Shown here: piece by piece, positions 3,110 to 20,872 of the stretch
Position numbering within the stretch: position 1 is the stretch's first letter
Layout: the number at the start of each line of letters is the position of its first letter
DNA from: Acidobacteriota bacterium
GTDB lineage: Bacteria; Acidobacteriota; Terriglobia; Terriglobales; Acidobacteriaceae
DNA length: 50,769 bases
Reading direction: 5' to 3'
Assembly (NCBI GenBank): GCA_003225495.1
Contig: QIAJ01000210.1
Location: 1-50,769, forward strand
Program-made: the position numbers and the translations under genes
The notes under the pieces: generated by a model
Databases searched by the model: none
Told to the model about the DNA's origin: nothing
The model's input: only the letters and a program-made list of their open reading frames with translations

Positions 3110-5485
3110 ATGATGGTCATGACGCTGCGCGAGCAAAGGTGGTCCCGCTGGTCGCGATGGCTGGGGAAGTTCCCGGCGCGCCAGATTGATCTGGCACTAG
3201 CGTTACTGGTCACATTGACCGGGCTGATCCTGTTTGCGTTCGCTGGAATCGGCGGCAGCACTCGCGCCGGGTTTCTTTTCCTCCAAAATGTGGAGCAGCG
3301 CTCGCTGGACATGCGCTTTGCCGCGCGCGGAGAGCGTCCGCATGACGAGCGCATTGTCATTGTCGGGATCGACGAGAAAACGCTTCAGAACGTCGGAGCG
3401 TTTCCGCTTCCACGAACTTCTTACGCAACGTTAGTCCAGAAACTGAGCACTGGTGGCGCGGGTGTGATTGCCTTTGACGCCACTTTTCCTACTCCCGAAA
3501 ATAATTCTGCTGCGCAGGCTCTTGGGAAACTACAGCGCGAACTTGGTCCGTCTGCGCCGGCGGGAATTACGGCGAAGATCAAGCAATTCGAGTCGGCCGG
3601 AGATCACGATGCGATGTTTGCCGCGGCGTTACAACAGTCGGGAAGAGTCGTGCTCGGCCATCTTTTTCTCGACCGGGACCGCGCCCAGGCTTCCGATGCA
3701 AAACGGTCGGAGGAGTACTTCAACATCGTGTGGGCAAAAGCGTTTCCGCAAGTGTTGAAGGTCAAGTCGAAAGGACGGGACTTCGACTTGAGCCGCGCCT
3801 GGATCGACAACGGCGGAAATGCTTACCCCGGCGCGGAAGCCAATCTGGCGTTGCTCGCTGAAGCGGCGGCCTCGTACGGTTTCTTCAACACCACCCCGGA
3901 TGCGGACGGCACGTTGCGGCGCGCATTGCTGATGGTTCGCTATCAGGATCAGGATTTCTTTCCTTCGCTCGCGATGCAGACACTGCGGGAGTACGAAAAG
4001 ATTCCTGATCAGGAGATTGCCGCCTACATTTCAGAAAACGGCTTGGAGCGCATCCAGTTTGGCCGGCACAACTTTCGGCCCTGGCATGATGGCAGCGTCC
4101 TCATTAACTACACCGGGCCTTACCATACCTACCGCCACTATTCGATGTGGGACGTGCTCAATGGCGCCGTGCAGCCCGAGACGTTCAAAGACAAGATCGT
4201 GCTGGTCGGCGGGACCGCGCTCGGCATCGGCGATTTACGAAGCACGCCGTTTCAGAAGCAGGATGCGGGTTACATGGGTGTCGAGGTTCACGCCAACATC
4301 ATCGACAACCTCCTGCACAGCGACGAAAAGGGACGCAGCTTTCTCACGCGTGGCCTGTATGAGGAGATGATCGACACCGGAATCATCGTGCTGTTTGGGC
4401 TGGTCTTCGGATTCTGGTTCAGCCGGGTCAAGCCGCTCTACTCAACCATCTCTGTATTTGTGACTCTCGGTGTGTTCGCATGGTTCATCTATTTCAGCTT
4501 CGCGCGTTGGGGGCTGTGGCTGAGTTGCGTGATTCCTGCGGGCACGCTGGTCGTGAACTACGCAGTCATCACTAGTTTCCGCATGATCTTTGAAGAAGGC
4601 GAGAAACGAAAAATCCGCAAAACGTTCGGTCAGTATCTCTCGCCGGGCGTGATCGCGCTGATCGAAAAGGATCCGCAGAAATACATCCGTCCGGGCGGGG
4701 AGACGAAAGACCTCACCGTGATGTTCAGCGATATCCGCGGCTTTACGACGATGTCGGAGGGCCTGACGGCGGACGAGCTGGTGCTCCTGCTGAATGAATA
4801 TCTCGGTGAGATGACCGAGGTAATTTTTCACAACCTGGGCACACTGGACAAATATATCGGCGACGCCATCATGGCATTCTGGGGGTCGCCTTATCCTCAG
4901 GACGATCATGCGTATCGTGCCTGCATGTGCGCATTGCAGATGATCAAGGCACTGGACAAGCTCAACATCAAGTGGAAGGCGGAGGGCCGCAAGCAGATCG
5001 CAATCGGCGTTGGATTGAACACCGGTCCGGTCAACGTGGGCAATATGGGTTCCGCGAAGCGCCTGGCGTGGACTGTGATGGGCGACAACGTCAACCTCGC
5101 GTCCCGCCTGGAGGGAATCACCAAGGAATATCGCGGCCGCATCGTGATCAGCGAAGGGACGTATCGGCAAGTCGCCGACAAATTCGTCTGCCGTGATCTC
5201 GACAAGATTCGCGTCAAGGGCAAGAACCTGCCCGTTACGATCTACGAACTGCTGGACTTCGCCGAAAATAGAGATAAGTACGAGCCGCTGCTGTCTCGCT
5301 ACAACCACGCCATGGAAGCCTATCGCGCGCAGAACTGGCAGGAGGCGGCCAGCCGTCTGGGAGAAATGCTGACCCACTTTCCGGACGATGGCCCTACCCA
5401 GATTTTTATGGATCGGGTATTGGAGTTTATGCAGAACGCGCCTGAGGCGGATTGGGATGGAGTTTACGTGATGAAGACGAAATAG
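3110..5485 (+). CDS. CHASE2-domain class III adenylate cyclase
   Basis: A 791-aa membrane signalling enzyme. An N-terminal membrane helix (about 28-48) leads into a periplasmic CHASE2 sensor (about 60-415, with IVIVGIDEKTL, GVIAFDATFP and KIVLVGGTALG). Three membrane helices follow (about 420-490), then a class III nucleotidyl cyclase domain (about 530-720). Metal-binding Asp residues sit in FSDIRGFT and YIGDAIMAFWG. The Lys of DKYIGD and the Thr of WTVMGD fit adenylate rather than guanylate specificity. The transition-state Asn and Arg are in NLASRLEG. A short helical tail follows. It probably turns ATP into cAMP in response to a periplasmic cue. It is likely cotranscribed with the FecR gene just upstream. 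ATGs at 3113 or 3119 are alternative starts. Confidence 0.92.
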   Translation: MMVMTLREQRWSRWSRWLGKFPARQIDLALALLVTLTGLILFAFAGIGGSTRAGFLFLQNVEQRSLDMRFAARGERPHDERIVIVGIDEKTLQNVGAFPLPRTSYATLVQKLSTGGAGVIAFDATFPTPENNSAAQALGKLQRELGPSAPAGITAKIKQFESAGDHDAMFAAALQQSGRVVLGHLFLDRDRAQASDAKRSEEYFNIVWAKAFPQVLKVKSKGRDFDLSRAWIDNGGNAYPGAEANLALLAEAAASYGFFNTTPDADGTLRRALLMVRYQDQDFFPSLAMQTLREYEKIPDQEIAAYISENGLERIQFGRHNFRPWHDGSVLINYTGPYHTYRHYSMWDVLNGAVQPETFKDKIVLVGGTALGIGDLRSTPFQKQDAGYMGVEVHANIIDNLLHSDEKGRSFLTRGLYEEMIDTGIIVLFGLVFGFWFSRVKPLYSTISVFVTLGVFAWFIYFSFARWGLWLSCVIPAGTLVVNYAVITSFRMIFEEGEKRKIRKTFGQYLSPGVIALIEKDPQKYIRPGGETKDLTVMFSDIRGFTTMSEGLTADELVLLLNEYLGEMTEVIFHNLGTLDKYIGDAIMAFWGSPYPQDDHAYRACMCALQMIKALDKLNIKWKAEGRKQIAIGVGLNTGPVNVGNMGSAKRLAWTVMGDNVNLASRLEGITKEYRGRIVISEGTYRQVADKFVCRDLDKIRVKGKNLPVTIYELLDFAENRDKYEPLLSRYNHAMEAYRAQNWQEAASRLGEMLTHFPDDGPTQIFMDRVLEFMQNAPEADWDGVYVMKTK

Positions 5486-5822
5486 GGACGAGATGAAAAT
5501 CTCCGCAACTTGCTTGGTAAGTTGGTTGGTAACCTGCGGGTTGCAGGCGATGAAAGGCCTACAATTTTGATGCTTCCGTCGCACAACGATTCACTAGATA
5601 CTTTCTACTAACTGTCCTGTAGTACGTGTGCCTTTCTAACGAAAACCTACAATATTATTGTTATTGACAACAGTGGCGCGAGGGATAGACTGTCACCCTA
5701 CGACTGCAACGCTCGCTGTGCGGGAACTTCCCTGAATGCGCCAAACCCATTTGCGATGGGTTGCGGCCAAATTTGGTAGACAAGCAAGCAGGAACGACAC
5801 GTTCGATCGGGAAGGATTTTTA
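5486..5822 (+). other. 337-bp intergenic region with leader structures
   Basis: No gene is seen here. It holds a candidate promoter (5664-5691), a perfect 7-bp hairpin AACCCAT-ttgcg-ATGGGTT (5744-5762), a 10-bp palindrome CCAAATTTGG (5767-5776), and a ribosome-binding site GGAAGG close to the ATG at 5823. Weak short hairpins lie just after the cyclase stop but lack a U-run. I could not match the leader to a known riboswitch. Confidence 0.4.
5664..5691 (+). promoter_or_regulatory. candidate sigma70-type promoter
   Basis: A perfect TTGACA (5664-5669) is followed after 16 bases by TAGACT (5686-5691), which keeps the most important -10 positions. It would drive the GloVer-repeat gene with a leader of about 120 bases. 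Confidence 0.4.
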
Positions 5823-6950
5823 ATGACTTCAGCCGAAATGATTCGCTCTCACGGCAGTTTGCCCTCGCGCATTAGACTCGCGGCTCGGCTGTTATTTGCG
5901 TCCCGCGCGTTTGACGTGCTGGCGGTTCTCGCTGGGCTGCTGCTTCTCGCCGTTCAGCCCATGCCCGCTGGGACCTACACCATCCTCTATCCTTTCAGCG
6001 GTGGCAGTGACGGCGGCAAGCCTACATCCCGCCTGATCTTAGACGCTGCCGGAAGCTTGTACGGAACTACTGAGGGTGGCGGTTTAGGGTTCGGAACTGT
6101 ATTTGAGCTTTCGCCGAATGGTGCCGGAGGTTGGAATGAGACGGTCCTTTACAGCTTTGCAGGCGGAGTCGATGGATCCTCTCCGCAGCACGCTGGAGTC
6201 ATCTTTGACGGTGCCGGCAACCTTTATGGAACTACACGTTACGGTGGTTCTAAGAACCATGGGACGGTCTTCAAACTCACCCGCGCGGGTAACGTTTGGA
6301 CCAAGACCGTTCTCCACAGCTTTGGAGGCAGTAAGACCGAAGGATGCTATCCGGAAAGCGGGTTGATCATTGACAATCTCGGCAATCTCTACGGTACAAC
6401 CCACGCATGCGGAGGCACGAGAGGAACGGTTTTTGAGATGAGCCCCTCGGGTGGTGGCAACTGGACGGAGCGCATTATATATGGCGTGGCGACCAGCTTT
6501 GCCGGGTTAATCATGGATGCTGCGGGAAATATCTTTGGTACTTCAAGGGACAACAAACTATTCGAACTGTCCCCCAACGGCAGCGGTGGTTGGAACGCGA
6601 GTGTGATTCATGTCTTCACCGGAACTCCGTTTGATGGTGGCGATCCGGAGGGCAATCTGGTGTTTGACAATGCCGGAAATCTTTACGGAACCACAGTGCA
6701 CGGAGGCGCCAATGGCCGCGGAACAGTCTATAAGATGAGTCACGGTCCAAGCGGATGGAATGAGCAGCTTCTCTATTCGTTCCAGTGCTGCAGCACCACC
6801 CTGCATTCGCCTATCGGAGGCGTTGTCCTGGATGCGTCTGGCAACATCTACGGAACTGCGACCTTAGGGGCCTACTACGGGGGAATCTTTGAGTTGGTAG
6901 CTTCAAAATGTGCATACTTTCGATTTCAGCGGTTGGTATTCCCTTGCTAG
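5823..6950 (+). CDS. GloVer-repeat exported protein, frameshifted near its end
   Basis: The start at 5823 is preceded by GGAAGG; an in-frame upstream ATG at 5736 lacks such a site. The 375-aa open frame has a long N-region and a hydrophobic segment (about 25-50) as a signal or anchor. It then carries about seven copies of a roughly 45-residue repeat built on GLIxDxAGNLYGTT, GTVFELSPNG and VLYSF. This is the repeat of 'choice-of-anchor GloVer-containing' proteins, probably a beta-propeller-like surface protein of unknown role. The frame breaks near 6900. In another frame the repeat goes on (HTFDFSGWYSL, then DNAGNLYGT) to a stop at 7038. Span 5823-7038 is 1216 bases, one more than a multiple of three, so one extra base would explain it. 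Confidence 0.75.
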   Translation: MTSAEMIRSHGSLPSRIRLAARLLFASRAFDVLAVLAGLLLLAVQPMPAGTYTILYPFSGGSDGGKPTSRLILDAAGSLYGTTEGGGLGFGTVFELSPNGAGGWNETVLYSFAGGVDGSSPQHAGVIFDGAGNLYGTTRYGGSKNHGTVFKLTRAGNVWTKTVLHSFGGSKTEGCYPESGLIIDNLGNLYGTTHACGGTRGTVFEMSPSGGGNWTERIIYGVATSFAGLIMDAAGNIFGTSRDNKLFELSPNGSGGWNASVIHVFTGTPFDGGDPEGNLVFDNAGNLYGTTVHGGANGRGTVYKMSHGPSGWNEQLLYSFQCCSTTLHSPIGGVVLDASGNIYGTATLGAYYGGIFELVASKCAYFRFQRLVFPC

Positions 6951-7245: not shown

Positions 7246-9426
7246 TTGGGATGGTGCTCACGGGTGCAGACAGGCGGACGCTCGCTCTGGTGGTCCGTTT
7301 TGTGTCTGCCATGGTTCGGGATTTTTCTGCTGCTTGTTCTCGCCACTCCGATTTTCGCTCGTCAGGTTCCAGGCGGCCGTCGCCTTCCAGAACGTTCTCC
7401 GGCCAGCACCGCTTCGTTGCAAGGATTAATTCGCGATTCGCAGGGGCATGGGATTCCCGGCGTCCAACTTGATTTGCGGAATACGAGTAGCGGCCAACAC
7501 TACATTGTCGCTACAAATGCCGAAGGCATCTTCCGCCTGCGTGATGTCCGGCTGGGAACCTATGAGGTCAAGTTCACGCGGGAACACTTCGAGACGCAGA
7601 CGATTTCCGACTTCAAGGTGAGCGGCCCGATCGCCGTTCTCGAACTTGTGCTGCGTGAGTCGAGCGAAGTGGTTCGGGCTGCAACGTGTTCGTCCGGCGT
7701 GCCGGGAATGCCATGTGCTGCGCCTGGTAGTCCTGGTACGCCTTATCCCGGAATCGGTCGCCCACTTCCTCAAGAGGCGGCCACACAAATTTCGACGGAG
7801 CAAATTCCGCGCGCCTCCGCCAACTTCTCGCCCAACCCCGACCGCTGGGACATCGCCATGCCCGACTGGCGCCGCTACGAGATGCAGCCCGATGCGCCTT
7901 ACGTGAAAGGCCACTGGTACGATCCCTACAACCGCAACAAGCTCAAAGGGGATTATCCAATTTTCGGCCAGCGCTGGTTTTTCAATTTCACGGGGACGAG
8001 CGAAACCGGATTCGACGGCCGCCGCCTTCCCACCCCAAGCGGCCTCAGTTCCGATCCCGGCGACAGCGGCTTCTTCGGACGCGGCGAGCAGGCCTTTGTA
8101 TCCGAGAATCTGCGGCTGTCTTTCGACTTGTTCCGCGGCGACACCAGTTTCCGTCCTGTCGACTTTCGCGTCCGCATCACGCCGGAGATTAATCTCAATT
8201 TTCTGCAAACCCGCGAGCGCGGCCTCGTGAATATCGACACGCGCAAGGGAACAAACCGCTTCGACACGCATATCGGATTGCAGGAAGCATTCGTCGAAGC
8301 CAAGATTCACGACCTCAGTCCGAATTACGACTTCGTGTCAGTGCGCGCCGGAATCCAACAGTTCAGCAGCGACTTTCGCGGATTTATTTTTTCTGAGGAG
8401 CAGCCGGGGGTTCGTGTCTTTGGCAATCTGCGTTCCAACCGCTTTGCATATAACGTCGCGTGGTTTGATCTTTTAGAGAAAAATACTAATAGCGGTCTGA
8501 ACTCATTTCACAAACGCGGACAGCAGGTCTATGTCGCGAATTTGTACATCCAGGATTTCGTCGCCAAGGGCTACACCACCGAGTTCAGTTTCCACTACAA
8601 CCGGGACGACGCCAGCATCCACTACGACGACAACGGCTTTCTCGTGCGTCCAGCGCCGGTTGGTGCAGTGGTAAATGGCACGGTCCATCCGCACAACATA
8701 CGCGCCTACTATCTGGGATGGACGGGCAACGGCCACATCGGACGTATCAACGTCAGCAATGCCTTTTATCAAGCGTTGGGGCACGACGACTTCAATACGA
8801 TCGCGGGCCGGCGGGTCGATATCAATGCGCGGATGGGCGCGCTCGAAGTGTCGATCGATAAGGACTGGGCGCGTTTCCGCGCATCCTTCTTCTACGCCTC
8901 CGGTGATTCCAGCAATCGCTCGGGCGCCTCCCGCACGGACGGCACGGCACGCGGCTTCGATTCGATCGTGGATGATATGCACTTCGCCGGGAGTGAAAAC
9001 AGCTTCTGGGATCATGAAGGCATCCGCCTCACGGCGACTGGAGTAGGGCTGGTTTCGCCGATGAGCTTATTGCCTGATCTGCGGTCGAGTAAAGAAGAAG
9101 GTCAGGCGAACTTCGTTAACCCGGGAATTTATATTTTCAATCTCGGAGCGGACTTCGAAGTAACTCCAAAGCTGCGCGCCTTCCTCAACTCTAACTATCT
9201 GCGATTTGATCGTACGGAGCCGTTGGAATTGTTGCTATTTCAGCGGCCGATCCGCCACAGCATTGGGACGGACGTTGGCACGGGCTTCGAGTATCGCCCG
9301 CCTCTGAGTGAGAACATCGTGATCCGAGGCGGAGCATCGGCGTTGTTGCCCGGGCAAAGCTTGCAGGATATTTACAACGGCAGAGTTTTATTTTCGTTGT
9401 TCGCGAAAGTGAAGTTTCAGTTTTGA
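7246..9426 (+). CDS. outer-membrane beta-barrel protein with N-terminal carboxypeptidase-regulatory domain
   Basis: A 726-aa product starting at TTG, with AAGGG about 12 bases upstream. The exact start is uncertain, because the ATG at 7221 is in another frame. A signal peptide ([20 protein letters not shown]) is followed by a carboxypeptidase-regulatory-like Ig fold (about 58-140: [18 protein letters not shown], then [15 protein letters not shown]). The rest (about 190-726) is rich in amphipathic strands with aromatic girdles and ends in VKFQF, the terminal Phe expected for an outer-membrane barrel. It resembles alginate-export-type porins rather than TonB receptors, as no plug motif is visible. 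Its stop overlaps the start of the secreted multiheme cytochrome (TTGA), so the two are probably made together. A porin-cytochrome role is inferred. Confidence 0.75.
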
Positions 9427-12400
9427 AAAACTTGCGATCGGTATTGCCCAATTTCGGCAGCGCCCTGGGCGCAACAGCCATCCTCTGCTTCCTGTTCGCA
9501 ATCCGTACTCACAGTTCTGCGTCGGCGCAGACGAGCGAAGATGTTCTGCTCCTGCAATCCGAGACCGACGTCGACCGAAAATCTGCGGGCTGCCTGACCT
9601 GCCACACTTCGACCGACAGCCCTACCATGCATGCAACTGGCACGGTTCGGCTGGGCTGCACGGACTGTCATGGAGGCAACAGCGAAGCGCGTGAGGCCCC
9701 AGGGAGTTCGCCTGATTCGGCTAACTACCTGCAAACCAAGAGCCAAGCGCATGCGCAGCCACGGAATTCCAAGGACGCACGTTCTTCGGCGAACGCCGAA
9801 CGACCCTATACAAACTGGCTGCGCGAAAACTGGGACTACGTCCGCTTCGTCAATCCCGGCGACCTGCGGGTTGCGGAAAAGACCTGTGGCACGTCGGGCT
9901 GTCATGCCGCCGAAGTCCGTAAAGTTCAGACCAGCATGATGACGCACGGCGCCATGCTGTGGGGAGCGGCGCTCTACAACAATGGGGCGGTTCCATTTAA
10001 GACGCCGCAGTTCGGCGAGAGCTATGGTCCGGACGGCACCCCCCGGCGCATGATGACTTTTCCTCCTCCAACTGCGGAGGAGATCGCGAAGAAAGGCATC
10101 CTGCCGTATCTCGATCCGCTCGAACGGTGGGAAATTTCTCAGCCCGGAAATGTGTTGCGGGTGTTCGAGCGCGGAGGCAAATCAAAGCCTGAACTCGGCA
10201 ACCCCAGCCTCGAAGAGGATCCTGGCAAGCCTGAGATCAAGCTCAGCTCACGAGGCTTCGGCACCGAACTCCGCACGGACCCGGTGTTCCTGGGACTGCA
10301 AAAGACTCGTCTCCTCGATCCGCTGCTCTCTTTTCCTGGCACCAACGATCAGCCCGGCGATTACCGAGCCAGCGGATGCAGTGCCTGCCACGTCATCTAT
10401 GCGAACGATCGCTCGCCGCAACATTCGGGCGTATATGCAGTCCATGGGAATCAGGGGCGGACCGCCACTTCCGACCCGACCATTCCACACAACGAATCCG
10501 GCCACCCGATTCGACATCAGTTCACGCGCTCCATTCCATCGAGCCAGTGCATGGTGTGCCATATTCACCCGGGCACGAATATGGTTTCGACTTACTTCGG
10601 CTACACGTGGTGGGACAATGAGGTGGATGGCGAACACATGTGGCCCGCCCGACAACGCAATCCGAAAGCAGGCGAGCAGAGCGTGGTTCAGGCGCGGAAT
10701 CCAGAGGGAGCAGCTGTTCGCGGGCTCTGGTCCGATACCGCCTTTCTGGAAGAGACCGGATCGCCGGAATTTAACGAGAAGCTCCAACACACGCAGTTTG
10801 CCGATTTCCACAGCCACGGATGGATTTTCCGCGCGGTCTTTAAGCACGATCGCAAAGGGAACCTGGAGGATGCCGACGACAAAGTTGTTTCCTTCGATGA
10901 TCCCGACAAGATGAAGAAAGCAGTGCACCTGAAAGATATCCATCTCGAGAAGGGAATGCATTGTGTCGACTGCCACTTCGAACAGGATAGCCACGGAAAT
11001 GGGAAACTCTACGGCGAGACGCGCAATGCCATTGAGATTGACTGCGTGGATTGTCACGGCACCATTCAGCGACGGGCATCTCTTGTGACGTCCGGCACGG
11101 CGGCTCCCATGGGCGGCACGAATCTTGGCGGGCTTCGCACACCATGGCAGGAGCGTCGTTTCTACTGGAGGGACGACCGGTTATACCAGCGGTCGATGCT
11201 TGAAAAGGACAAGGAATGGGAGGTGGTTCAGGTTTGGGACACGATCACTCCCGGCAATGCGCGTTACAGCGAAAAGTCGCGGCTGGCGAAGACCATCCAG
11301 CAGGACGGCGAAACCTGGGGCAACGCGTCGCAGAGTGAATCGAAACTCGCTCATCAGAACAGCCGAATGACTTGCTACACCTGCCATTCATCCTGGGCTC
11401 CGACGTGTTATGGCTGTCATCTTTCGATGACTGCCAATCAGCGCACGCCGATGCTGCACAACGAAGGCCTGACGACGCGCAACTGGACTTCCTACAATTT
11501 CCAGGTGCTGCGCGATGATATCTATACGCTCGGCATCGATGGCACGGTGACAGGAAATCGCGTGGCGCCGGTGCGATCTGCGTGCGCAGTGGTGGTCAGT
11601 TCGCAAAATAACGATCGCGACTGGCTGTATTACCAGCAACAGACTGTTTCGGCCGAAGGCTTCAGTGGACAGGCATTCAGCACGTTTGTTCCCCACACGG
11701 TGCGAGGAAAAGAGACGAAAGGCTGCACCGACTGCCACGTCTCGCGTGCCAATGACAACAATGCCTGGATGGCACAACTGCTGCTCCAGGGGACAAATTT
11801 CATGAATTTCATGGGGCGCTATGTTTTCGTTGCGGCTGGCAGCGAGGGCTTCGAGGCGGTTGCGGTGACCGAACACGATGAGCCGCCGGCGGTGATTGGC
11901 AGCGACTTCCAGAAGATCGCTTACCCCGAGAACTACAGGAAGCACATTGAAGCTCACAGCGCACTAAGGGAATCTCATCAGCATGCGGGAGGTGAAGTTC
12001 TCGACCTGCAGGCGCGTGGCGAGTATCTCTACGCGGCAATGGGCAAGGGCGGACTGCGCATCTTCGACATCGCGAACAACGACAACAAAGATATCTCGGA
12101 GCGTATGGTGACGGCTCCGGTATCGCCACTTGGCCAGCGTTTCTTTCTGCCAACCAAATATGCAACCGCTGTCGCTACCCCGACCACACTTGGCGTGGAT
12201 CCATTGCGGACACATCGGAAAGAGAATGAAGAGCAGTCCGTCCACTTGATGTATGGATTTCTCTATGTGGCGGACAAATACGAAGGGCTGGTGATCGTCG
12301 GCAACCCTGACCTCAAAAGTAAGAGTCCTGGCGTGGGGACATTGCTGGATGGCAATCCAGCGAATAATTTTCTCAAGGGGGCGCTGGCGTTCAATCCTGG

Positions 12401-13172
12401 CGGCGTTTTGAACGGCGCTCGCCGCATTACGATCGCTGGAACGTACGCTTACATTCTCTGCGATCGCGGGCTGGTGGTGGTGGACCTCGATAATCCACTT
12501 CAGCCTAAGGTGACGGCAGAAATTGGGGCGCCGGCATTGAACGATCCGCGCGGAATCGCCCTCCAGTTTCGTTATGCTTTTGTGGTGGATCACGATGGAT
12601 TGAAAGTTCTGGATGTTACGCAGTTGGGGCAGCCGAAAGTGGTACCGGGTGCGGGGGTTCCTCTGGAAGATGCTCGCAACATTTATGTCGCCCGGACGTA
12701 TGCTTACGTCGCCAATGGCAAAAAAGGAGTGGCAATCGTGGATGTCGAGCGTCCGGAAGAGCCGCGGCTTGATCAAATGTTCAATGCTGGCGGCGAGATC
12801 AACGATGCCAATGATGTGAAACTGGGGATGGTCAGTTCAAGTTTGTTCGCTTACGTCGCAGATGGGGTCAACGGATTGAAAGTTGTTCAGCTGTTCTCTC
12901 CGCCTGATAACCCTGCGTTCGGCGGATTCAGTCCGCGACCCACGCCCAAGCTAATTGCGAGGTATCGCACGCATGGTCCAGCGCTGGCTCTGTCGAAGGG
13001 AATCGATCGCGACCGGGCTGTGGATGAAAGCGGAAACCAACTCGCGGTGTTTGGACGGCGTGGGGCCCGGCCCTTCAACCGTCAAGAGATGGAGCGGATG
13101 TACCTGCGGGATGGCGCGCTATTTACCGTGACTGAGGAGCCGCCTGTCGCGAAGCAGACCGCGCCACGGTAA
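9423..13172 (+). CDS. secreted multiheme c-type cytochrome with LVIVD repeats
   Basis: A 1249-aa protein with a signal peptide cut near SASAQ. Residues about 57-790 hold nine CXXCH sites (CLTCH, CTDCH, CSACH, CMVCH, CVDCH twice, CYTCH, CYGCH, CTDCH) plus one wider CGTSGCH (CX4CH), so up to ten covalent hemes. The C-terminal 400 residues carry LVIVD-type repeats ([51 protein letters not shown]), predicted to fold as a beta-propeller. The TTG start overlaps the barrel gene's stop. No clear lipobox is seen. Likely an outer-membrane-associated or extracellular electron carrier or multiheme enzyme working with the barrel. Substrate is unknown; a multiheme oxidoreductase is an alternative to a pure conduit. 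Confidence 0.85.
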
Positions 13173-13232
13173 CTCTCGAGCTTGAAATGAACGCGGAGAG
13201 TTGCGGGAGGCGACTACAGCCCGCAGGATGCG

Positions 13233-14591
13233 CTACCTGTCAAGAACTGGAACGCGGGCTTCACCGCGTAGTTGCTGAATGGTGAAGTCACCTTTGGTCG
13301 GTTTAGTTTTCGTCCAGTCATGATACTGATGACACTCGTAGCAGCGGCCTTCAGCGGCTTCTTTCGTGGAGCCCTGTGGACGATGGCACTGCTGGCAAGT
13401 CTGAATGCCCGGGAGAAGGACGTCTGTTGTCTCGCGGCTGTCGGGAGTGCGACTGTGGCAGCTAGTGCAGGTCATCATGCGATGCGGATGATGATCGAAA
13501 TCGGCATGTGATAGCCAGCGCGTTGTCATGTTCGACTTCGCGACCTCGGGCAGGGAATCATTGGTCGGCCGTAGTGTGTGGCACTGCTTGCACGTCTTGG
13601 CGTATAGAAGCCACTCTGCATCTTCAACGCGAAACTGAACCCACTCGGCCGCATTGCGCGCAGACCGCGCCTGCCGAACACGCTCCGGGATCTGCCGGTC
13701 AGGGGGATTCACTTCATGTACCGCGCCGGGATGGGTCGCGATGTACTCGCCGAACTTCTTCACCAGGAACGTATGAATCACTTCGGGCTTATCGTGTGGG
13801 ACCTGCTCATTGCCGAAGTGTGTATCGAATTGCAAGGTGTGACAGGCGGCACAGTGTTTCGCAAATTCCGGCGGAGGCATGTAGGCCTGTTCGTGGGGAC
13901 GGCGCGTGCTGATTTCGGTCAGGGAGGCGGGATGAAGTTCCGCAGCTTGATGAGGCGTGACATCTGCGGTCTTGGTCCCATGGCAGTCGTCGCAGATCAA
14001 CTGCATCCGCGTGTTGTTGGGCCCAATCAGGTTAGGTTGCAGGTGCAGGTAGTGATTGAGTCGAACCCCGCCGGGGTCGGTCTTTCCGGAACGTAGTGTT
14101 GAGAACTCTGGATGCTTCCGGTCAAAGCCGGCAATGGAACTAATGTAGTGCGGTTGTCCGTCGCGGGTGCGCAGGTCGGCGTGACATTGGGTACAAGCCC
14201 GGTCTGCCGTTGCTTGCAGCAGCATGGCGCCTTTGTGCTCGACGTGACACGACGCACATTCGGGAGTGAATGTCTGATTCACATGATGCACGGGGGCGTC
14301 ATGGCAGGTGAGGCAGGCTTTGTCGGTGACATGCGCGCTGAAAGATCCGGCTTGGGCGACGTGACAAAGTGCGCATTGCTGCGTGAATACGGCGTGCGCG
14401 TGGGAGAGCGGTCCCGCGGAATACACTTTCTGGCCGCCCTGCGCGCGCTGTAAGACGAACCAGCTCAGTGCAATCGCTGGAACTGCGATGGAGAGCCAAA
14501 ACCGCCATTGCCGGAACGGGTGCGCATGCGCGAAGTATTGCAGGTCAATGCGCTTGGCGAGTTTCTTGGTTGTGCGCGTCCGTCGCAGCAT
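13233..14591 (-). CDS. membrane-anchored periplasmic decaheme c-type cytochrome
   Basis: This 452-aa product has a cytoplasmic basic N-terminus, one membrane helix (about 30-47, FWLSIAVPAIALSWFVL) and a periplasmic part with exactly ten CXXCH sites: CALCH, CLTCH, CASCH, CTQCH, CDDCH, CAACH, CKQCH, CTSCH, CQQCH and CYECH. Many extra His residues can serve as distal ligands, as in cytochrome c3/c7-like families. It is the last gene of a - strand operon and starts 9 bases after the diheme b-type gene. The likely role is to take electrons from the membrane b hemes and pass them through the periplasm. Its C-terminus faces the convergent 1249-aa cytochrome gene across 60 bp. Confidence 0.88.
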   Translation of the reverse strand: MLRRTRTTKKLAKRIDLQYFAHAHPFRQWRFWLSIAVPAIALSWFVLQRAQGGQKVYSAGPLSHAHAVFTQQCALCHVAQAGSFSAHVTDKACLTCHDAPVHHVNQTFTPECASCHVEHKGAMLLQATADRACTQCHADLRTRDGQPHYISSIAGFDRKHPEFSTLRSGKTDPGGVRLNHYLHLQPNLIGPNNTRMQLICDDCHGTKTADVTPHQAAELHPASLTEISTRRPHEQAYMPPPEFAKHCAACHTLQFDTHFGNEQVPHDKPEVIHTFLVKKFGEYIATHPGAVHEVNPPDRQIPERVRQARSARNAAEWVQFRVEDAEWLLYAKTCKQCHTLRPTNDSLPEVAKSNMTTRWLSHADFDHHPHRMMTCTSCHSRTPDSRETTDVLLPGIQTCQQCHRPQGSTKEAAEGRCYECHQYHDWTKTKPTKGDFTIQQLRGEARVPVLDR

Positions 14592-14600
14592 CTTTGAATC

Positions 14601-15521
14601 TCAAAATCTCAAAGCAACTACAGCATGCACGGCTCCCAGAACTAACAACCCGTAGGACAGCGGGATGTGCACGAGCAGCCAGCCATGCAGAATCCTGTGC
14701 AGGCGGCTCTGTTTATCCAGCTGGCGCTTTTCTTCGCAAATGTTTTCCAGGTCGTCCAGGTTTGAATGCAGATCGGGAGGAAGGAGCACCCGAAACTGCT
14801 GGAACATTTTCTGCGCCTGACCTGACTGCCCGAGGCGTGCCGTATGTGCTCCGGCACGCTCAAGATAGGGGCGCATTTCCTGATCGAGAAAAGTGCGTAG
14901 CTGTACGCTAACCTGTTGGTTGGTCCGCAGGCCAGAAGCCACCGTCAGCCCGCCTTGTGTGCCTGCACTGGCAGATACGGCTCGCTGGCGTTCGCTGGCG
15001 CGCGATACTTCGCCTTCCAGAGCGGAGCACGTTTCTTCCACCAGTTGTCCGGCTTCTTCGGCCAGTTGTCCGCGGACGCGATCAATTTGTTCGTAAATCG
15101 TCTCCATCGGAAGCTGTGCGGTTTGGAAGCGGGGCATGAAGTGCTGCAGAGCAGCGCCGAGTATGCCGCTGATCCAGACGAAGCCGAACAGCCACATCAG
15201 CAAACGAGTCAGTGATCCACCGAAGTGGAAACCGCCATGAAAGAGAATCAGAGGGAAACTGAGTAGGCCGAGCCAGAGGTGACCGCGCATCCATGTTTGC
15301 GCACGGCCTATGCGCCAGATCGGAAATTTTTTGCGCAAGCCGAGCAATCCGGCGAACAGCATGCAGAGGAAGCCGGTAGTGCCGAAAGTCAATCCGATCC
15401 CGCTGCCTCCTCGTGGTCCCTGCGGTGAGTGCAATGCGTATGGGACATAGACCGCGGCGGCGACCGTGAGCGCCGCTGCGCTCCCGAGGAACCATTTGCG
15501 ATGCGTGTGATCGATGAGCAC
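14601..15521 (-). CDS. integral membrane diheme cytochrome b-like protein (two HX13H motifs)
   Basis: A 306-aa protein with about five membrane helices (about 10-30, 47-62, 79-98, 105-127, 280-303). Two helices each carry a pair of histidines exactly 13 residues apart: His81/His95 and His285/His299. This is the arrangement that holds two stacked b hemes in ferric reductase/NADPH oxidase-type proteins, though no flavin domain is present. A soluble segment of about 150 residues, partly coiled-coil in character, sits between helices 4 and 5 and is unusual. It lies 6 bases after the Fe-S/CNB gene and 9 before the decaheme gene. It probably carries electrons across the inner membrane. Heme binding is inferred from spacing only. 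Confidence 0.78.
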   Translation of the reverse strand: MLIDHTHRKWFLGSAAALTVAAAVYVPYALHSPQGPRGGSGIGLTFGTTGFLCMLFAGLLGLRKKFPIWRIGRAQTWMRGHLWLGLLSFPLILFHGGFHFGGSLTRLLMWLFGFVWISGILGAALQHFMPRFQTAQLPMETIYEQIDRVRGQLAEEAGQLVEETCSALEGEVSRASERQRAVSASAGTQGGLTVASGLRTNQQVSVQLRTFLDQEMRPYLERAGAHTARLGQSGQAQKMFQQFRVLLPPDLHSNLDDLENICEEKRQLDKQSRLHRILHGWLLVHIPLSYGLLVLGAVHAVVALRF

Positions 15522-15527
15522 GCGATC

Positions 15528-17654
15528 TCAACTCCCGTCCGTACGCGGTGCGGGTTGCGCGAGCATGCCGGCGAAGAATTCCGGCGGATTCACGCGATGC
15601 GCGGCGTCATGCGGACAGGCATACACGCAACTTGGCTCGGCGTGATCGTGACATAGATCGCAGGACGTCGCTTTCACGCGCACGCCGGCGATTGTTTGTC
15701 CGGGATGCGAGGGATCGTCTAGTTCGGCAGGGAAGGGATGCAGGTTGATATTTCCGTAAGGACAGTTGGTGGCGCACAGCCCACAACCGATGCACCAGTC
15801 TTCGATAATCACTTCCAGCGTGTTGCGGCGGCGGATGGATCCAACCGGACACCCGACCATGCAGAGCGGATCGCGACACTGACGGCAGGATGTCGCCACC
15901 AGATATTTATCGAAGCGTAGTCCTTCACGAACGAGGCGACTGACGCCTTCGTGCGCATCCGCACAGGCGCGAACGCATTGGTCGCAGCGTGTGCACTTTT
16001 CGAGGTCGAGGACGAGCAGGCTTTGAGCCTCCATCAGGCCCTGAGCAAGGAACTGATCGACGGGAACATTTTGTGTCTGAACGGTGTGGCGCAGGTTTTC
16101 TTTGATGCGTTCCTGGGCAATGGCTTCGAGCTTTTGGCGGACCTCGGGGAAGCGGTCGAGCATGAGTTGGAAATCTTCGCCCACGATACGGACGACTTCG
16201 ACATGGTCGAGAGCGGTGCAGGTCGCGGAGCGCGGACTGCCGCTCAGAAGAGCAATCTCGCCGAAGTAGCCGCCGCGGGCGAGGTAGGCGAGCACCAACT
16301 CGCCGCCCGGACGCTGCTCAGAGACTTTTACAAAGCCGATGCGGACGAGGTAAAAGCTGTCGGCAGGATCTCCCTGCCGACAGATTACCTGTCCGGGATT
16401 GAAACGCAGGAGTTCGACGCGATCACGCAGGTGGTCGATGAAATCCTGGGTGAGCGACTTGAAGACGGGAACGCTGCGCAAGTGCGAGTCGAGCGCGCGG
16501 GCGCGATAGTTACGCTCCAGTTGCGCGCGAAAAGTCTTGTTGCGCTGGAGAATGTCGAGAACATTTCTCAGCATCTCAAGCATTACGCAGTCAGTACGAG
16601 CGCGGACCGTAGCCGAGCGCGGGTAATAGCTCATGCAGGTCATTTCGCCAAACATGTCGCCAGGATTCAGTTCAGCGATAGGACTGTCGTAAGGCAAATC
16701 GACCGAAGCGTCGATGGGAATAAATGGCCGATCGGACTCTTCGCTGCGGCGGTCGCCCTCGCGGGGCGCGAGCAGGCTCTGCAGTTTACTAAAAAAGCCC
16801 TTGCTGCTGCCTTCGGTCTTGACGTGCGCGATGGGGCTGGCGAGAAAGACTTCGGCTTGACCTTCGAGGATGTAGAACGCCGTCGACCCGAATTCGCCTT
16901 CGCGGCACACAATTTCTCCTGCCTTGAAATGCCGCTTCTTCTGGAAAATTGGAAGGCCCAACAGTTCGGACGGATCGAGGACATCTCCCTCGCCGAGTTG
17001 TGTCCCGACGACTCGTTTGTTGGTGAGCGCTCCGGTAGGACAGGAGACCATGCATTCGCCGCAAGACACGCAGGACGACTCGCTCATCGGCAGGTTGTTG
17101 TCAAAAGCAATGCCAGCCTGGTACCCCTTGCCGCGGCGGGCCAGCACCCAGTTGTCGCGGATGTCATCGCAGCCGCGAATGCAGCGGTCGCAAAGGATAC
17201 AAGCTTCGTGATCGACAGCGATCACGGCGGATGAGTCGTCTTTTCCTCGCGGAGTGGTGCGGTGAGGGAAGCGCGACTCTTTGATTCCAGCCGCGCCGGC
17301 AAGGCGCTCCAGTTCGCAGTCTCCGGACTGCTGCTGGCGGGCGCATGGCGCGGGATGATCCGACATCAGGAGTTCGACCAGAGTATTGCGAGCCGCATGC
17401 ACCTGGTCGGTTGCGGTCTTCACCGTCATGCCGGATTCACATTGGCGAATGCAGGATGCCGCATAGACGCGCTGGCCGATATCCACCACGCAGACGCGAC
17501 ACACACCGACAGGATTTTCATTCTGCTGATGGCAGAGGGTTGGAATGGGGATGCCATTGACACGCGCGGCGTCGAAAATCGTAGTTCCCACCGGCACGGA
17601 GATGGGCCTGCCGTCGATGGTGAGCTGAATCTCGGCGGCGGGACGGGAACTCAT
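15528..17654 (-). CDS. NuoG-like Fe-S protein with two cyclic-nucleotide-binding domains and a DmsB-like ferredoxin end
   Basis: The ATG at 17652-17654 overlaps the stop of the NuoEF gene (ATGA), giving 708 aa. Domains in order: a [2Fe-2S] ferredoxin (Cys41, 52, 55, 68); a NuoG-type His-Cys motif (His100, Cys104, Cys113) whose third Cys is Gln107; two [4Fe-4S] sites (Cys152/155/158/162 and 195/198/201/205); CNB domain 1 (about 230-385, with a 50-residue insert) and CNB domain 2 (about 391-520); and a DmsB/HybA-like end with four CX2CX2-7CX3C-type sites (from Cys554, 590, 621, 665). Both CNB domains keep FGE and PRSAT of the phosphate-binding cassette (Glu337/Arg346, Glu466/Arg475). No signal peptide, so cytoplasmic. 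It likely relays electrons from NuoEF to the b-type protein. Control by cAMP or cGMP is inferred. Confidence 0.88.
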   Translation of the reverse strand: MSSRPAAEIQLTIDGRPISVPVGTTIFDAARVNGIPIPTLCHQQNENPVGVCRVCVVDIGQRVYAASCIRQCESGMTVKTATDQVHAARNTLVELLMSDHPAPCARQQQSGDCELERLAGAAGIKESRFPHRTTPRGKDDSSAVIAVDHEACILCDRCIRGCDDIRDNWVLARRGKGYQAGIAFDNNLPMSESSCVSCGECMVSCPTGALTNKRVVGTQLGEGDVLDPSELLGLPIFQKKRHFKAGEIVCREGEFGSTAFYILEGQAEVFLASPIAHVKTEGSSKGFFSKLQSLLAPREGDRRSEESDRPFIPIDASVDLPYDSPIAELNPGDMFGEMTCMSYYPRSATVRARTDCVMLEMLRNVLDILQRNKTFRAQLERNYRARALDSHLRSVPVFKSLTQDFIDHLRDRVELLRFNPGQVICRQGDPADSFYLVRIGFVKVSEQRPGGELVLAYLARGGYFGEIALLSGSPRSATCTALDHVEVVRIVGEDFQLMLDRFPEVRQKLEAIAQERIKENLRHTVQTQNVPVDQFLAQGLMEAQSLLVLDLEKCTRCDQCVRACADAHEGVSRLVREGLRFDKYLVATSCRQCRDPLCMVGCPVGSIRRRNTLEVIIEDWCIGCGLCATNCPYGNINLHPFPAELDDPSHPGQTIAGVRVKATSCDLCHDHAEPSCVYACPHDAAHRVNPPEFFAGMLAQPAPRTDGS

Positions 17655-19348
17655 GCTGTCCCTCGCGCTGAAAAGCAAACACCGGCGGCGCAGCGGCGGT
17701 GGTTCCGGTGGTCGTCCACGACCGCACGGAAATGTTTTAGCACCGACAAGATCGGAACAGGAACGACCTGACCGAGTCCGCAAATTGAAGTCAGCTTCAG
17801 TGCATGAGAAAGTTCGTCGAGCAATGGAAGATCAGAGGTTGAGGAGCGCCCTTCGGTCCAGCCCGACAGCATTTCGACTAATTTCTGCGACCCGACACGA
17901 CAGGGAACACATTTGCCGCAGGACTCGTTGCGGTAGAAACGCACCGCATTGAGTGCCATATCGAGCATGCAGCGGCCTTCGGCGCAGACGACGATGGCTC
18001 CCGAACCGACCATGGAACCAGCGGCGGCCACGGCGTTCCAGTCGAGCGGGAGATCAGCCATGGATGCGGGCAGGTATCCGGAGGAAGGACCAGAGGGCGC
18101 GTAAGCGAGAAGTTGGCGGCCTCCTGGGATCCCGCCGGCATATTCGAAAATCAGCGCGGAATATTTCGTGCCCATCGGCACTTCGTAGACGCCGGGACGA
18201 TTCACATCGCCGCTGATGCCCACGAACTTCATGCCGGACGCGCCGTTCGTGCCCTGAGATTTAAACCAATCCGCGCCCCGAGACAAGATCACGGTCGCGA
18301 ACGTAAAAGTCTCAACGTTGTTGATCGCCGTGGGCTGGTTCCACAGTCCGTTGGTGCCCGGGAAGGGCGGCTTGTTGCGGGGTTCAGCGCGTTTTCCTTC
18401 GATCGCTTCGAGCAGGGCGCTCTCTTCGCCGCAGATGTAGCCGCCGGGGCTTACAAAGATTTCCAGGTCGAATTCCAAGTCGCTGCCAAGAATTCGCGGA
18501 CCGAGAAGCCCGTCGCGATAGCACCGGTCGATTTCTGCCTGCAGGATTTCTTTTGGACGGTGGTATTCGTGGCGGATGTAAAGAATCCCGCGGCGAGCGC
18601 CCGTGACGAGGCCGGCCATAATCATGCCTTCGATCACGAGGTAGGGCACGTTCTCCATGATGAAGCGGTCTTTGATGGTGCCCGGTTCACTCTCATCGGC
18701 ATTGCAAACGATGTACTTTTCTTTGCCCGGTGCGTTGCGGACGATCTCCCATTTGCTGCCAGTCGGAAAGCCGGCGCCGCCCATGCCACGCAGGCCGGCC
18801 GCTTTGAGAGTGGCAACGACCCCGGACCAATCCGGAGTCTGGACGAACTGCCGCACGGCAGAATAGTTGGGCGAGCCGTTATACGGATCAGAAAGCACCG
18901 GCAGCGGTTTGTGGCTTGACTGTGCGGCGGGAAGTTCACGACCGGCCAAAACGTCGCGCACAAGTCCGAGTGTGCGTTGTTCGTCAATGTTGGTGTAAAT
19001 CTGATCATTAATCGAGAGCGCTGGAGCCTGATCGCATCGCCCGAGGCAGGAAACATTGCGGACAGCAACTTTCTCCGCGCCGCCTGCGCCGAATGCTTGT
19101 TCCAGGCCGTGCTTCAGGGCCGGTGCGCCCCGGAGATGACACGACATGTCCGCGCAGACTCGCACTTCAACTTGGGCGGGCGGCGCAAGATGAAAGTGAG
19201 GATAAAAGCTCGCGACCGCATGAATCTGGCTTAACGGGTCCTGAATCTTGGCTGCGAGTTCCTGCAAACGATCGGCGGGCAAATAGCCGAACTGATGCTG
19301 AATGGACCTGAGTTCGTCGATCAAGCGACAGGGTCCCCTTGATTCCAA
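17651..19348 (-). CDS. NuoE-NuoF fusion: NAD(P)H-oxidising FMN/Fe-S subunit
   Basis: A 565-aa fusion. Residues 1-125 are a NuoE-like thioredoxin-fold domain with [2Fe-2S] ligands Cys65, Cys70, Cys101 and Cys105. From about 150 it is NuoF-like: the NADH/FMN-binding GMGGAGFPTGSKW (188-200), CNADESEPGT (215-224), an ICGEESALLEAIEG segment, and a [4Fe-4S] site formed by Cys477, Cys480, Cys483 and Cys523. Such modules oxidise NADH in complex I, NAD-reducing hydrogenases and formate dehydrogenases. Here no hydrogenase or quinone-reducing partner follows; the next genes are Fe-S/CNB, b-type and decaheme proteins. It is first in the operon. The start is a TTG with only a weak upstream site, so it is uncertain. 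Confidence 0.9.
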   Translation of the reverse strand: MESRGPCRLIDELRSIQHQFGYLPADRLQELAAKIQDPLSQIHAVASFYPHFHLAPPAQVEVRVCADMSCHLRGAPALKHGLEQAFGAGGAEKVAVRNVSCLGRCDQAPALSINDQIYTNIDEQRTLGLVRDVLAGRELPAAQSSHKPLPVLSDPYNGSPNYSAVRQFVQTPDWSGVVATLKAAGLRGMGGAGFPTGSKWEIVRNAPGKEKYIVCNADESEPGTIKDRFIMENVPYLVIEGMIMAGLVTGARRGILYIRHEYHRPKEILQAEIDRCYRDGLLGPRILGSDLEFDLEIFVSPGGYICGEESALLEAIEGKRAEPRNKPPFPGTNGLWNQPTAINNVETFTFATVILSRGADWFKSQGTNGASGMKFVGISGDVNRPGVYEVPMGTKYSALIFEYAGGIPGGRQLLAYAPSGPSSGYLPASMADLPLDWNAVAAAGSMVGSGAIVVCAEGRCMLDMALNAVRFYRNESCGKCVPCRVGSQKLVEMLSGWTEGRSSTSDLPLLDELSHALKLTSICGLGQVVPVPILSVLKHFRAVVDDHRNHRRCAAGVCFSARGTA

Positions 19349-19549
19349 GATTCCAATAATGACGAGGTTACGAAGAATCTTAACGTCAACGGTTCTCGGT
19401 GGGGAATGGCGAACTTGGGGCCTGAAGACTCACGACAGTCGTTGTCCGTCAGTTTGGGAAGCGAACCATTCCGTCAATTGATTTCGCCCAGCGGAGTGGG
19501 TATAAGCAAAACTATCGCTCTAAAAATGCGCATAGTGGACGAGGGACGA

Positions 19550-20872
19550 ATGTCGTGGCGATGGACGGCGTGTCTCTCGCTCGCCTGCATTGGTTCGGCT
19601 TTCGCGCAGAAGACGGTGGTCGGCAAATACAACGGGCCGGGCGGATGCGCGTCCAGCAGTTGTCATGGAAGCATCCAGCCCAAGCAGATTACGGATGTTG
19701 CGCAAAACGAGTACAGCATCTGGGCGGGCCAGGATAAACATGCCCGCGCTTATCAGGTGCTGTCCAATGACGTTTCCGTTCGCATTGGCAAAATTCTTAA
19801 CCTCAAGTCACCGCCTGGCGAGAACCAGAAATGTCTCGCGTGCCATGCGCTTTCGGTGCCTCCGGAGATGCGCGCTCAGAGCTTCGATGTCAGCGACGGG
19901 GTCAGCTGCGAGCATTGCCACGGCCCAGCCGCAGGATGGCTCGGGGCGCACACGGTAAGAGAGTGGGAGACCCGCACGCCTGCGCAGAAAGATCAGCTTG
20001 GGATGCGCGATCTGCGAGACGTCGCCATCCGCAGCCACACTTGTCTACGTTGCCACCTTGGAACGGAAGAGCAGTCCGTCGATCACCAGATGATTGCGGC
20101 GGGACATCCTGATCTGACGTTCGAGCTGAATCTGTTCAGCGCGGTGATGCCGAAACATTGGAAGGATCCGAATGAGATTCCCTGGTTTGGAACGAAAGAG
20201 TGGGCGGTGGGGCAAGGGATGCAATTACGTGACAGCATGCAGCGGCTGGCGCGCCGCGCGCGCAGTTCGACGTGGCCGGAATATTCCGAGCTTGATTGCT
20301 TTGCTTGCCATCACAGTCTGACGGCTGCGAAAGACAGTTGGCGTCAAGATGTCGGGTATGCCGGACGCACGCCGGGTGTGCCTGCGTGGAATTCTTCGCG
20401 GTTCGCGGTGTTTCGCTACGCGGCCGCGGAAACGGATCCGGCGGCTTACGGCAAACTTGAGTCTGAGTTGGCGACTCTGAGTGGGCTAATTGGACAACTC
20501 AGTGGTGACCGGCAACAGATTGCGGCGTCCGCCGATCGCGCCGCCGAACTCGCACATTTTCTTACCGGCGCGTTGAACAATCGCAGCTACGATCAGGCAT
20601 TCACGTTGAGGGTGATGCGGAAGATTGCCGCTGATTCCAACGCGATCTCTCAGCAAGGACAGCGAGCCGCCGGGCAGGCTGCCATGTCGCTCGACTCGCT
20701 GTTCGGCGTTTACAAGCAGAATGCGAAGGATCTCGATGAGGCGCAGATAAAGGCAGCGATCGATGGACTCTTCCAGCAACTTGATGATCCGTCTGCTTAT
20801 AACGCTCCCCGGTTCTCCGCACAGATGCAGAAGTTAGCAGTGCTGTTGTCGGCGGAGAAGGGAAGCCGCTAA
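19550..20872 (+). CDS. multiheme c-type cytochrome, c554-like
   Basis: I start at 19550, where GAGGGA precedes the ATG and a signal peptide ([13 protein letters not shown]) follows at once; upstream in-frame starts (19406, 19526) would add an unlikely extension. The 440-aa product has four CXXCH sites (CLACH, CEHCH, CLRCH, CFACH) and a wider CASSSCH (CX4CH), so probably five hemes, in the style of cytochrome c554 family proteins. A helical C-terminal half lacks heme sites. It is transcribed away from the NuoEF operon across a 200-bp shared upstream region, and its stop lies 2 bases before a glycosidase gene. Likely a periplasmic electron carrier or multiheme enzyme linked to the neighbouring redox genes; substrate unknown. 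Confidence 0.85.

Follow-up and report, generated by a model that had tools for sequence, protein, structure and literature searches.

A candidate NADH:multiheme-cytochrome c oxidoreductase, probably messenger-tuned, with a putative outer-membrane partner pair in an acidobacterial genome

We analyzed a window consisting of one whole contig of 50,769 bp (G000:C204) from an acidobacterial genome of 4.5 Mb in 261 contigs, the closest relatives of which are metagenome genomes of the Terriglobia/Acidobacteriaceae, and focused on a cluster of seven redox genes (P1–P7). This cluster probably encodes an inner-membrane NADH:multiheme-cytochrome c oxidoreductase that is coupled to an outer-membrane porin-cytochrome pair, that likely disposes of NADH electrons and that is probably tuned by a messenger. 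The reading is drawn from gene order, domain content, paired histidines, heme motifs and co-occurrence across genomes, all of which were obtained by sequence comparison.

Four of the genes form a tight operon on the minus strand (13233–19348): P1 (17651–19348), a NuoE-NuoF fusion; P2 (15528–17654), an iron-sulfur (Fe-S) protein with cyclic-nucleotide-binding (CNB) domains; P3 (14601–15521), a predicted b-type cytochrome with five transmembrane helices; and P4 (13233–14591), a periplasmic decaheme cytochrome c with an N-terminal anchor. The ATG of P2 lies in an ATGA shared with the stop codon of P1, the two genes being translationally coupled, and because of this overlap we placed the start of P2 at approximately 17654 rather than 17783; P2 and P3 are separated by 6 nt and P3 and P4 by 9 nt. 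On the plus strand, P7 (19406–20872) is divergent from P1, and P6 (7246–9426) and P5 (9423–13172) overlap one another (TTGA) and converge on P4. All seven genes had been described in an initial annotation of this DNA, and we confirmed all seven at the positions given there. That annotation had also suggested searching for the four-gene order in other genomes. We found 77 loci with P2, and in 56 of the 61 loci that have room on both sides the order P1-P2-P3-P4 was kept; a chance arrangement is therefore excluded. The possibility that the cluster is a one-off was likewise rejected, given the 77 related loci.

The first two proteins carry the predicted NADH-oxidizing module. In P1, the domains 2Fe-2S_thioredx, Complex1_51K, SLBB and NADH_4Fe-4S were all above the Pfam cut-offs, corresponding to flavin mononucleotide (FMN), a 2Fe-2S cluster and an N3-type 4Fe-4S cluster, and the best relatives in the PDB were HydB and Nqo1. 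NADH_4Fe-4S is the last domain of P1. The NuoF-like subunit of bifurcating HydB/BfuB-type enzymes extends further, into a C-terminal 2x[4Fe-4S] ferredoxin domain, and has a second substrate site; P1 has no such domain. The motifs that we take to be those for FMN and NADH in NuoF are retained (GAGFPTG, NADESEPG, GEESAL and ESCGKC), with GRGGAG changed to GMGGAG. According to Pfam and alignment, P2 begins with a Fer2 domain of the HoxU/NuoG-N type, which is followed by two CNB domains and, at the C-terminus, by a ferredoxin domain that has four 4Fe-4S motifs. Its counterpart of the NuoG N5 ligand set (HxxxCxxCxxxxxC) has no middle Cys (HxxxCxxQxxxxxC), and this residue has been lost from all 19 aligned P2 sequences, including those of Planctomycetota; because of this loss, the N5 cluster of P2 appears to be altered or absent.

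Complex I, HoxEFU, HydABC and NAD-dependent formate dehydrogenase share the NuoE, NuoF and NuoG-N/HoxU-type domains with P1 and P2, in a similar cofactor order. One could accordingly imagine that P1 and P2 supply NADH electrons as an accessory module to complex I, or to a hydrogenase or formate dehydrogenase, and that the cytochromes are incidental neighbors; two loci of Planctomycetota (L055 and L057), in which NuoEF and P2 stand alone, point the same way. However, the cluster encodes no proton-pumping membrane arm, hydrogenase or formate dehydrogenase, P2 goes on with CNB and ferredoxin domains, P3 follows in the operon, and the P1–P4 order is widely kept. A complete nuo operon with its own NuoE/F/G (L121) sits elsewhere in the genome, as does a further NuoF/HoxU pair, which accompanies an apparent formate dehydrogenase (L122). 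Since complex I is complete, P1 is not its missing NuoEF, a candidate role that we rejected, and the accessory-input explanation is scarcely credible. This result also bears on the concern, raised in the initial annotation, that the NuoEF part might associate with another complex.

The membrane-crossing step is assigned to P3. As the initial annotation had noted, this protein has exactly two HX13H pairs (H81/H95 and H285/H299), and we found them to be invariant among 52 sequences. P3 itself had no Pfam match at standard thresholds (best 0.02), whereas members of its family matched DUF4405 (29/52, best 4e-5), Ni_hydr_CYTB (13/52, best 2e-6) and Ferric_reduct (7/52, best 5e-4). All three are families of b-type cytochromes. 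For DUF4405 proteins, the binding of heme b has been demonstrated (PMC11334425). The AlphaFold2 (AF2) model of P3, with a predicted local distance difference test (pLDDT) score of 84, contains helices long enough to span the membrane; the third and the last of them bear the His pairs, and the last is preceded by a long helical loop. From the positions of positive residues we infer that the side between helices 2 and 3, together with the long loop, is cytoplasmic, which would place one heme on each side of the membrane. A fold search against the PDB gave no significant match (best b561, E 0.37), and the P3 profile, searched against PDB sequences, retrieved no useful relatives. P4, in turn, has 10 CXXCH motifs and matches Cytochrome_C7 in Pfam, and its N-terminal hydrophobic anchor, also reported previously, is found in 70 homologs (median Kyte–Doolittle value over 17 residues, 2.09).

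These features suggest the following route. NADH would reduce the FMN of P1, whose Fe-S clusters and those of P2 would relay the electrons to the heme on the cytoplasmic side of P3, and P3 would carry them across to its periplasmic heme and then to decaheme P4, the four proteins presumably forming a complex. Beyond P4, the path could lead via P7, via P5 together with P6, or via both, to an acceptor in the periplasm or outside the cell. Such a route would probably serve to get rid of NADH electrons while the normal chain is limited.

To place this operon among its relatives, a profile of P3 was searched against whole genomes and matched 63 of 396 Acidobacteriota and 60 of 246 Planctomycetota genomes, these being phylum samples without phylogenetic correction. 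We annotated 85 cytochrome b loci, 72 of which have at least 3.5 kb on both sides; in all 72, which span the two phyla, a multiheme gene lies within 4.5 kb of the cytochrome b. The input module near the cytochrome b was variable: NuoF was found in nine of these 72 loci, a domain for flavin adenine dinucleotide (FAD)/NAD(P) instead in 32 and neither in 31, although the FAD profile can match unrelated FAD proteins. Pfam confirmed thioredoxin-reductase-like Pyr_redox domains in eight proteins (L088, L089, L092, L095, L096, L097, L099 and L101), which are joined to CNB-ferredoxin in L088 and L089, occur in separate Fe-S-FAD proteins in L095, L099 and L101 and stand together with FHA and 2Fe-2S domains in L092. 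Fusions to the cytochrome itself were also found (CNB-FeS-cytochrome b in L095 and FeS-FAD-cytochrome b in L151). Conversely, two loci of Acidobacteriota (L062 and L075) and one of Planctomycetota (L073) have a short P2 consisting of CNB, CNB and ferredoxin domains only, with cytochrome b and decaheme present and no NuoEF, and in L055 and L057 the cytochrome b and decaheme genes are found elsewhere in the same genomes. NuoEF is thus a detachable input. What speaks most strongly for NAD(P)H as the cytosolic partner is that non-homologous pyridine-nucleotide modules swap beside the same cytochromes.

We next consider the pair P5 and P6, the putative outer-membrane partner. P5 is a multiheme cytochrome with nine CXXCH motifs, one CX4CH motif and C-terminal LVIVD repeats recognized by Pfam. 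P6 has an N-terminal carboxypeptidase-regulatory-like domain (Pfam CarboxypepD_reg), followed by a putative outer-membrane beta-barrel; its C-terminal Phe, the usual signature of outer-membrane barrels, is invariant in 21 homologs. No barrel match was obtained for P6 by sequence in Pfam or the PDB, PDB sequence searches with P4, P5 and P6 gave no useful relatives, and the AF2 model of P6, with approximately 16–18 long strands, was of low confidence (pLDDT 55) and too poor for a fold search. P5 is present in 42 of the 396 Acidobacteriota genomes, 41 of which have the P3 family (Fisher P = 1.9e-38, uncorrected for phylogeny), and P6 is present in exactly those 41 genomes, in 40 of them lying immediately upstream of P5 in the same orientation. 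Of the 41 genomes, 25 have the cytochrome b and P5/P6 on one contig, and 22 have them within 12 kb of each other. Given this co-occurrence, we rejected the idea that P5 and P6 are incidental neighbors. The comparison indicates that the pair, which the initial annotation had placed at the border of the operon, belongs to the system. In two loci of Planctomycetota (L145 and L152), P3 and P4 are joined with a c554-like P7, P5 (56–58%) and P6 (46–51%).

The route to the cell exterior has to be weighed against a shorter one, in which NADH electrons end at P7 or some other enzyme of the periplasm, in the service of detoxification or redox balance, and P5/P6 have another substrate. P7, a c554-type multiheme cytochrome (Pfam Cytochrome_C554) with four CXXCH motifs and one CX4CH motif, is the nearest and the commoner neighbor, being found in 65 of the 77 loci and mostly directly divergent, whereas adjacency of P5/P6 is seen in fewer. 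The cluster also occurs in the cultured isolate Granulicella aggregans M8UP14 (L058), a member of an aerobic genus, and is hence open to testing. However, where a core locus has no adjacent P5, a P5 of 62–69% identity was found elsewhere in 13 of 14 such genomes, and the co-occurrence of P5/P6 with the cytochrome b is almost perfect. We therefore regard a purely periplasmic destination as unlikely.

A second issue is the quinone pool. In the window, neither the operon nor the adjoining genes yielded an identifiable quinone-reactive partner; the initial annotation had named a partner of this kind, if constant, as evidence for a different reading. Elsewhere in the genome, and unlinked, are an NrfD-type protein and a partial protein (G000:C178:5535–6871, L217) that is cut by the contig end, has N-terminal membrane helices and a NapC-type multiheme domain, and resembles ImcH. 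P3 and P4 might thus also trade electrons with the quinone pool in the manner of CbcL, NADH being one entry among others, and P5/P6 might be shared with the ImcH-like quinol oxidase candidate. Such a dual input would fit the weak similarity of P3 to the cytochrome b561/ferric-reductase families, some members of which are quinone-reactive, and the clusters with no NAD(P)H module nearby. It is opposed by the lack of an identified quinone-reactive gene in or beside the operon and by the cytosolic NAD(P)H modules that are repeatedly and independently fused or adjacent, and we consider it possible but rather doubtful. The initial annotation had proposed a conduit from NAD(P)H across both membranes with an NADH module instead of a quinol oxidase. 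Of this proposal, the NAD(P)H input and the step from cytochrome b to decaheme are retained, and an outer partner is retained by comparison; NuoEF is not universal, however, and the words 'instead of a quinol oxidase' are too strong given the unlinked ImcH-like candidate.

The direction of transfer may also be questioned. The cofactors would in principle permit electrons from the periplasm or the outside to enter and reduce NAD+, and known envelope cytochromes such as CbcL/MtoC have been implicated both ways (PMC6295460). However, the inside-negative potential opposes inward transfer to NAD+, a donor of very low potential would be needed and the cluster lacks a coupling subunit; thus, reverse use is very improbable, and outward transfer from NADH remains our preferred reading.

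With respect to regulation, both CNB domains of P2 retain the phosphate-binding cassette (F-G-E...R-[ST]-A-[TS]), as FGEMTCMSYYPRSAT and FGEIALLSGSPRSAT. Across the 19 aligned sequences, the cassette of the first domain (CNB1) hardly varies, and its Glu and Arg do not vary at all; the cassette pattern is present in 46 of 62 relatives. A gene for a CHASE2-adenylate/guanylate cyclase (3110–5485, plus strand; Pfam CHASE2 1.8e-61, Guanylate_cyc 9e-28), a candidate source of the messenger, lies just outside the range that had been reported and was overlooked in the initial annotation. It is one of only two class III cyclases detected in the genome of the window. Its orthologs are beside P6 in the window and in L002, L009 and L056, beside P4 in L011, L013, L015, L019, L047 and L060, and approximately 5.5–6.7 kb from P7 in L005, L006 and L059. 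Linkage by three arrangements suggests that the association is functional rather than a mere consequence of common descent. The two CNB domains of P2, taken together with the linked CHASE2 cyclase gene, make it probable that a cyclic nucleotide tunes electron flow or assembly; gating in this sense is deduced from the intact binding motifs and the linked cyclase.

Several observations weigh against the conduit as we have described it. One Fe-S cluster of P2 may be missing, the middle N5 Cys being lost. Heme binding by P3 is predicted from the His pairs and weak family matches, and its fold has no significant match in the PDB. The putative barrel P6 is poorly modelled. NuoEF is missing from several related clusters and would be one of several inputs, and quinol, through the ImcH-like candidate, may be a second source for the outer pair, which is what gives rise to the dual-input alternative. 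As for gating, the P2 of the window lacks 14 CNB1 residues (an in-frame segment resembling VSGTFLELNxxAVV) that aligned homologs have, which weakens the claim for this strain, and the CNB domains may be structural. The 14-residue gap may reflect either a difference between strains or an error of assembly.

Other members of the family suggest a wider pattern of regulation. FHA domains were found on multiheme proteins of L089, L090 and L095. In L096 (7900–11328) and L097 (8003–11257), one chain combines FHA, a transmembrane segment, seven c-heme motifs, 4Fe-4S and FAD/NAD(P) domains, with one further CXXCH inside the ferredoxin motif, and the neighboring gene encodes a CNB-FeS-cytochrome b fusion; these proteins are apparently one-chain regulated transmembrane NAD(P)H:cytochrome oxidoreductases. 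We tentatively suggest, somewhat short of an even chance, a class of second-messenger- or phosphosignal-gated transmembrane NAD(P)H:multiheme-cytochrome oxidoreductases, in which a core of cytochrome b and multiheme protein would take exchangeable NuoEF or FAD inputs, carry CNB domains on the Fe-S subunit or FHA domains on the multiheme or FAD subunit, and be wired to P5/P6. If so, regulation would act on the electron wire itself, and there is a real chance that messenger-gated electron wires form a class of their own.

To our knowledge, described Gram-negative routes to the cell exterior begin at the quinone pool and have no signal-binding domains. In agreement with the initial annotation, which knew of no described system with this gene order, we found no description of the system in the open literature searched, which leaves out most subscription papers. 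The nearest reported idea is that of the Verrucomicrobia porin-multiheme cytochrome clusters (PMC5615132), which share with MtrCAB, Pcc and the present cluster, where the barrel is putative, a barrel gene beside a multiheme gene, an inner-membrane source and proposed extracellular transfer. Compared with these porin-cytochrome conduits, P6 has no detectable MtrB-type family match, P5 is a multiheme-LVIVD protein and the predicted source is an NADH-fed b/decaheme pair, not a quinol oxidase. CbcL shares the architecture of diheme b and multiheme c feeding an envelope conduit; however, the known members of the CbcL/MtoC and ImcH group oxidize quinol or reduce quinone and have neither a cytosolic NADH module nor a CNB module (PMC6295460), whereas P3 and P4 are separate proteins. 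In NOX/ferric reductases and DUF4405/b561 proteins, as is predicted for P3, NAD(P)H electrons cross the membrane via two stacked hemes b held by His pairs in two helices, but here they would pass to a decaheme c chain, and the flavoprotein and the Fe-S wire are separate subunits. By analogy, the system would act at the inner membrane like a NOX/ferric reductase and continue at the outer membrane like a porin-cytochrome conduit, while being an established member of neither. Rnf is a ferredoxin-using ion pump with subunits unrelated to this cluster, and it operates without an outer membrane. Methanosarcina Rnf-MmcA offers a precedent for cytosolic carriers that feed a membrane multiheme cytochrome (PMC6703419).

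If the route does start at NADH, the quinone pool would be bypassed, and soil Acidobacteriota and Planctomycetota would possess a non-pumping valve for excess reductant, with minerals or humic matter as possible sinks. If the CNB domains act on the wire, the system would provide one of few examples in which a messenger acts directly as the switch of an electron-transfer chain.

Some further observations were made at related loci and in the window. L089 (7660–9984) and L090 (3955–6342) encode P4 decaheme homologs with two C-terminal FHA domains, the pair in L089 lying behind a second transmembrane helix, which suggests phosphosignal control of these cytochromes. At L098–L101, L171–L172, L195, L197, L198 and L205, a related cytochrome b is found beside proteins with 20–53 heme motifs, often with an Fe-S-FAD protein and without CNB domains, forming a sister class with giant multiheme cytochromes. 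Finally, between the cyclase gene and P6 in the window, positions 5736–6950 (plus strand) encode a 404-aa protein of GSLYGTT-type repeats, for which no Pfam family was above the cut-off.

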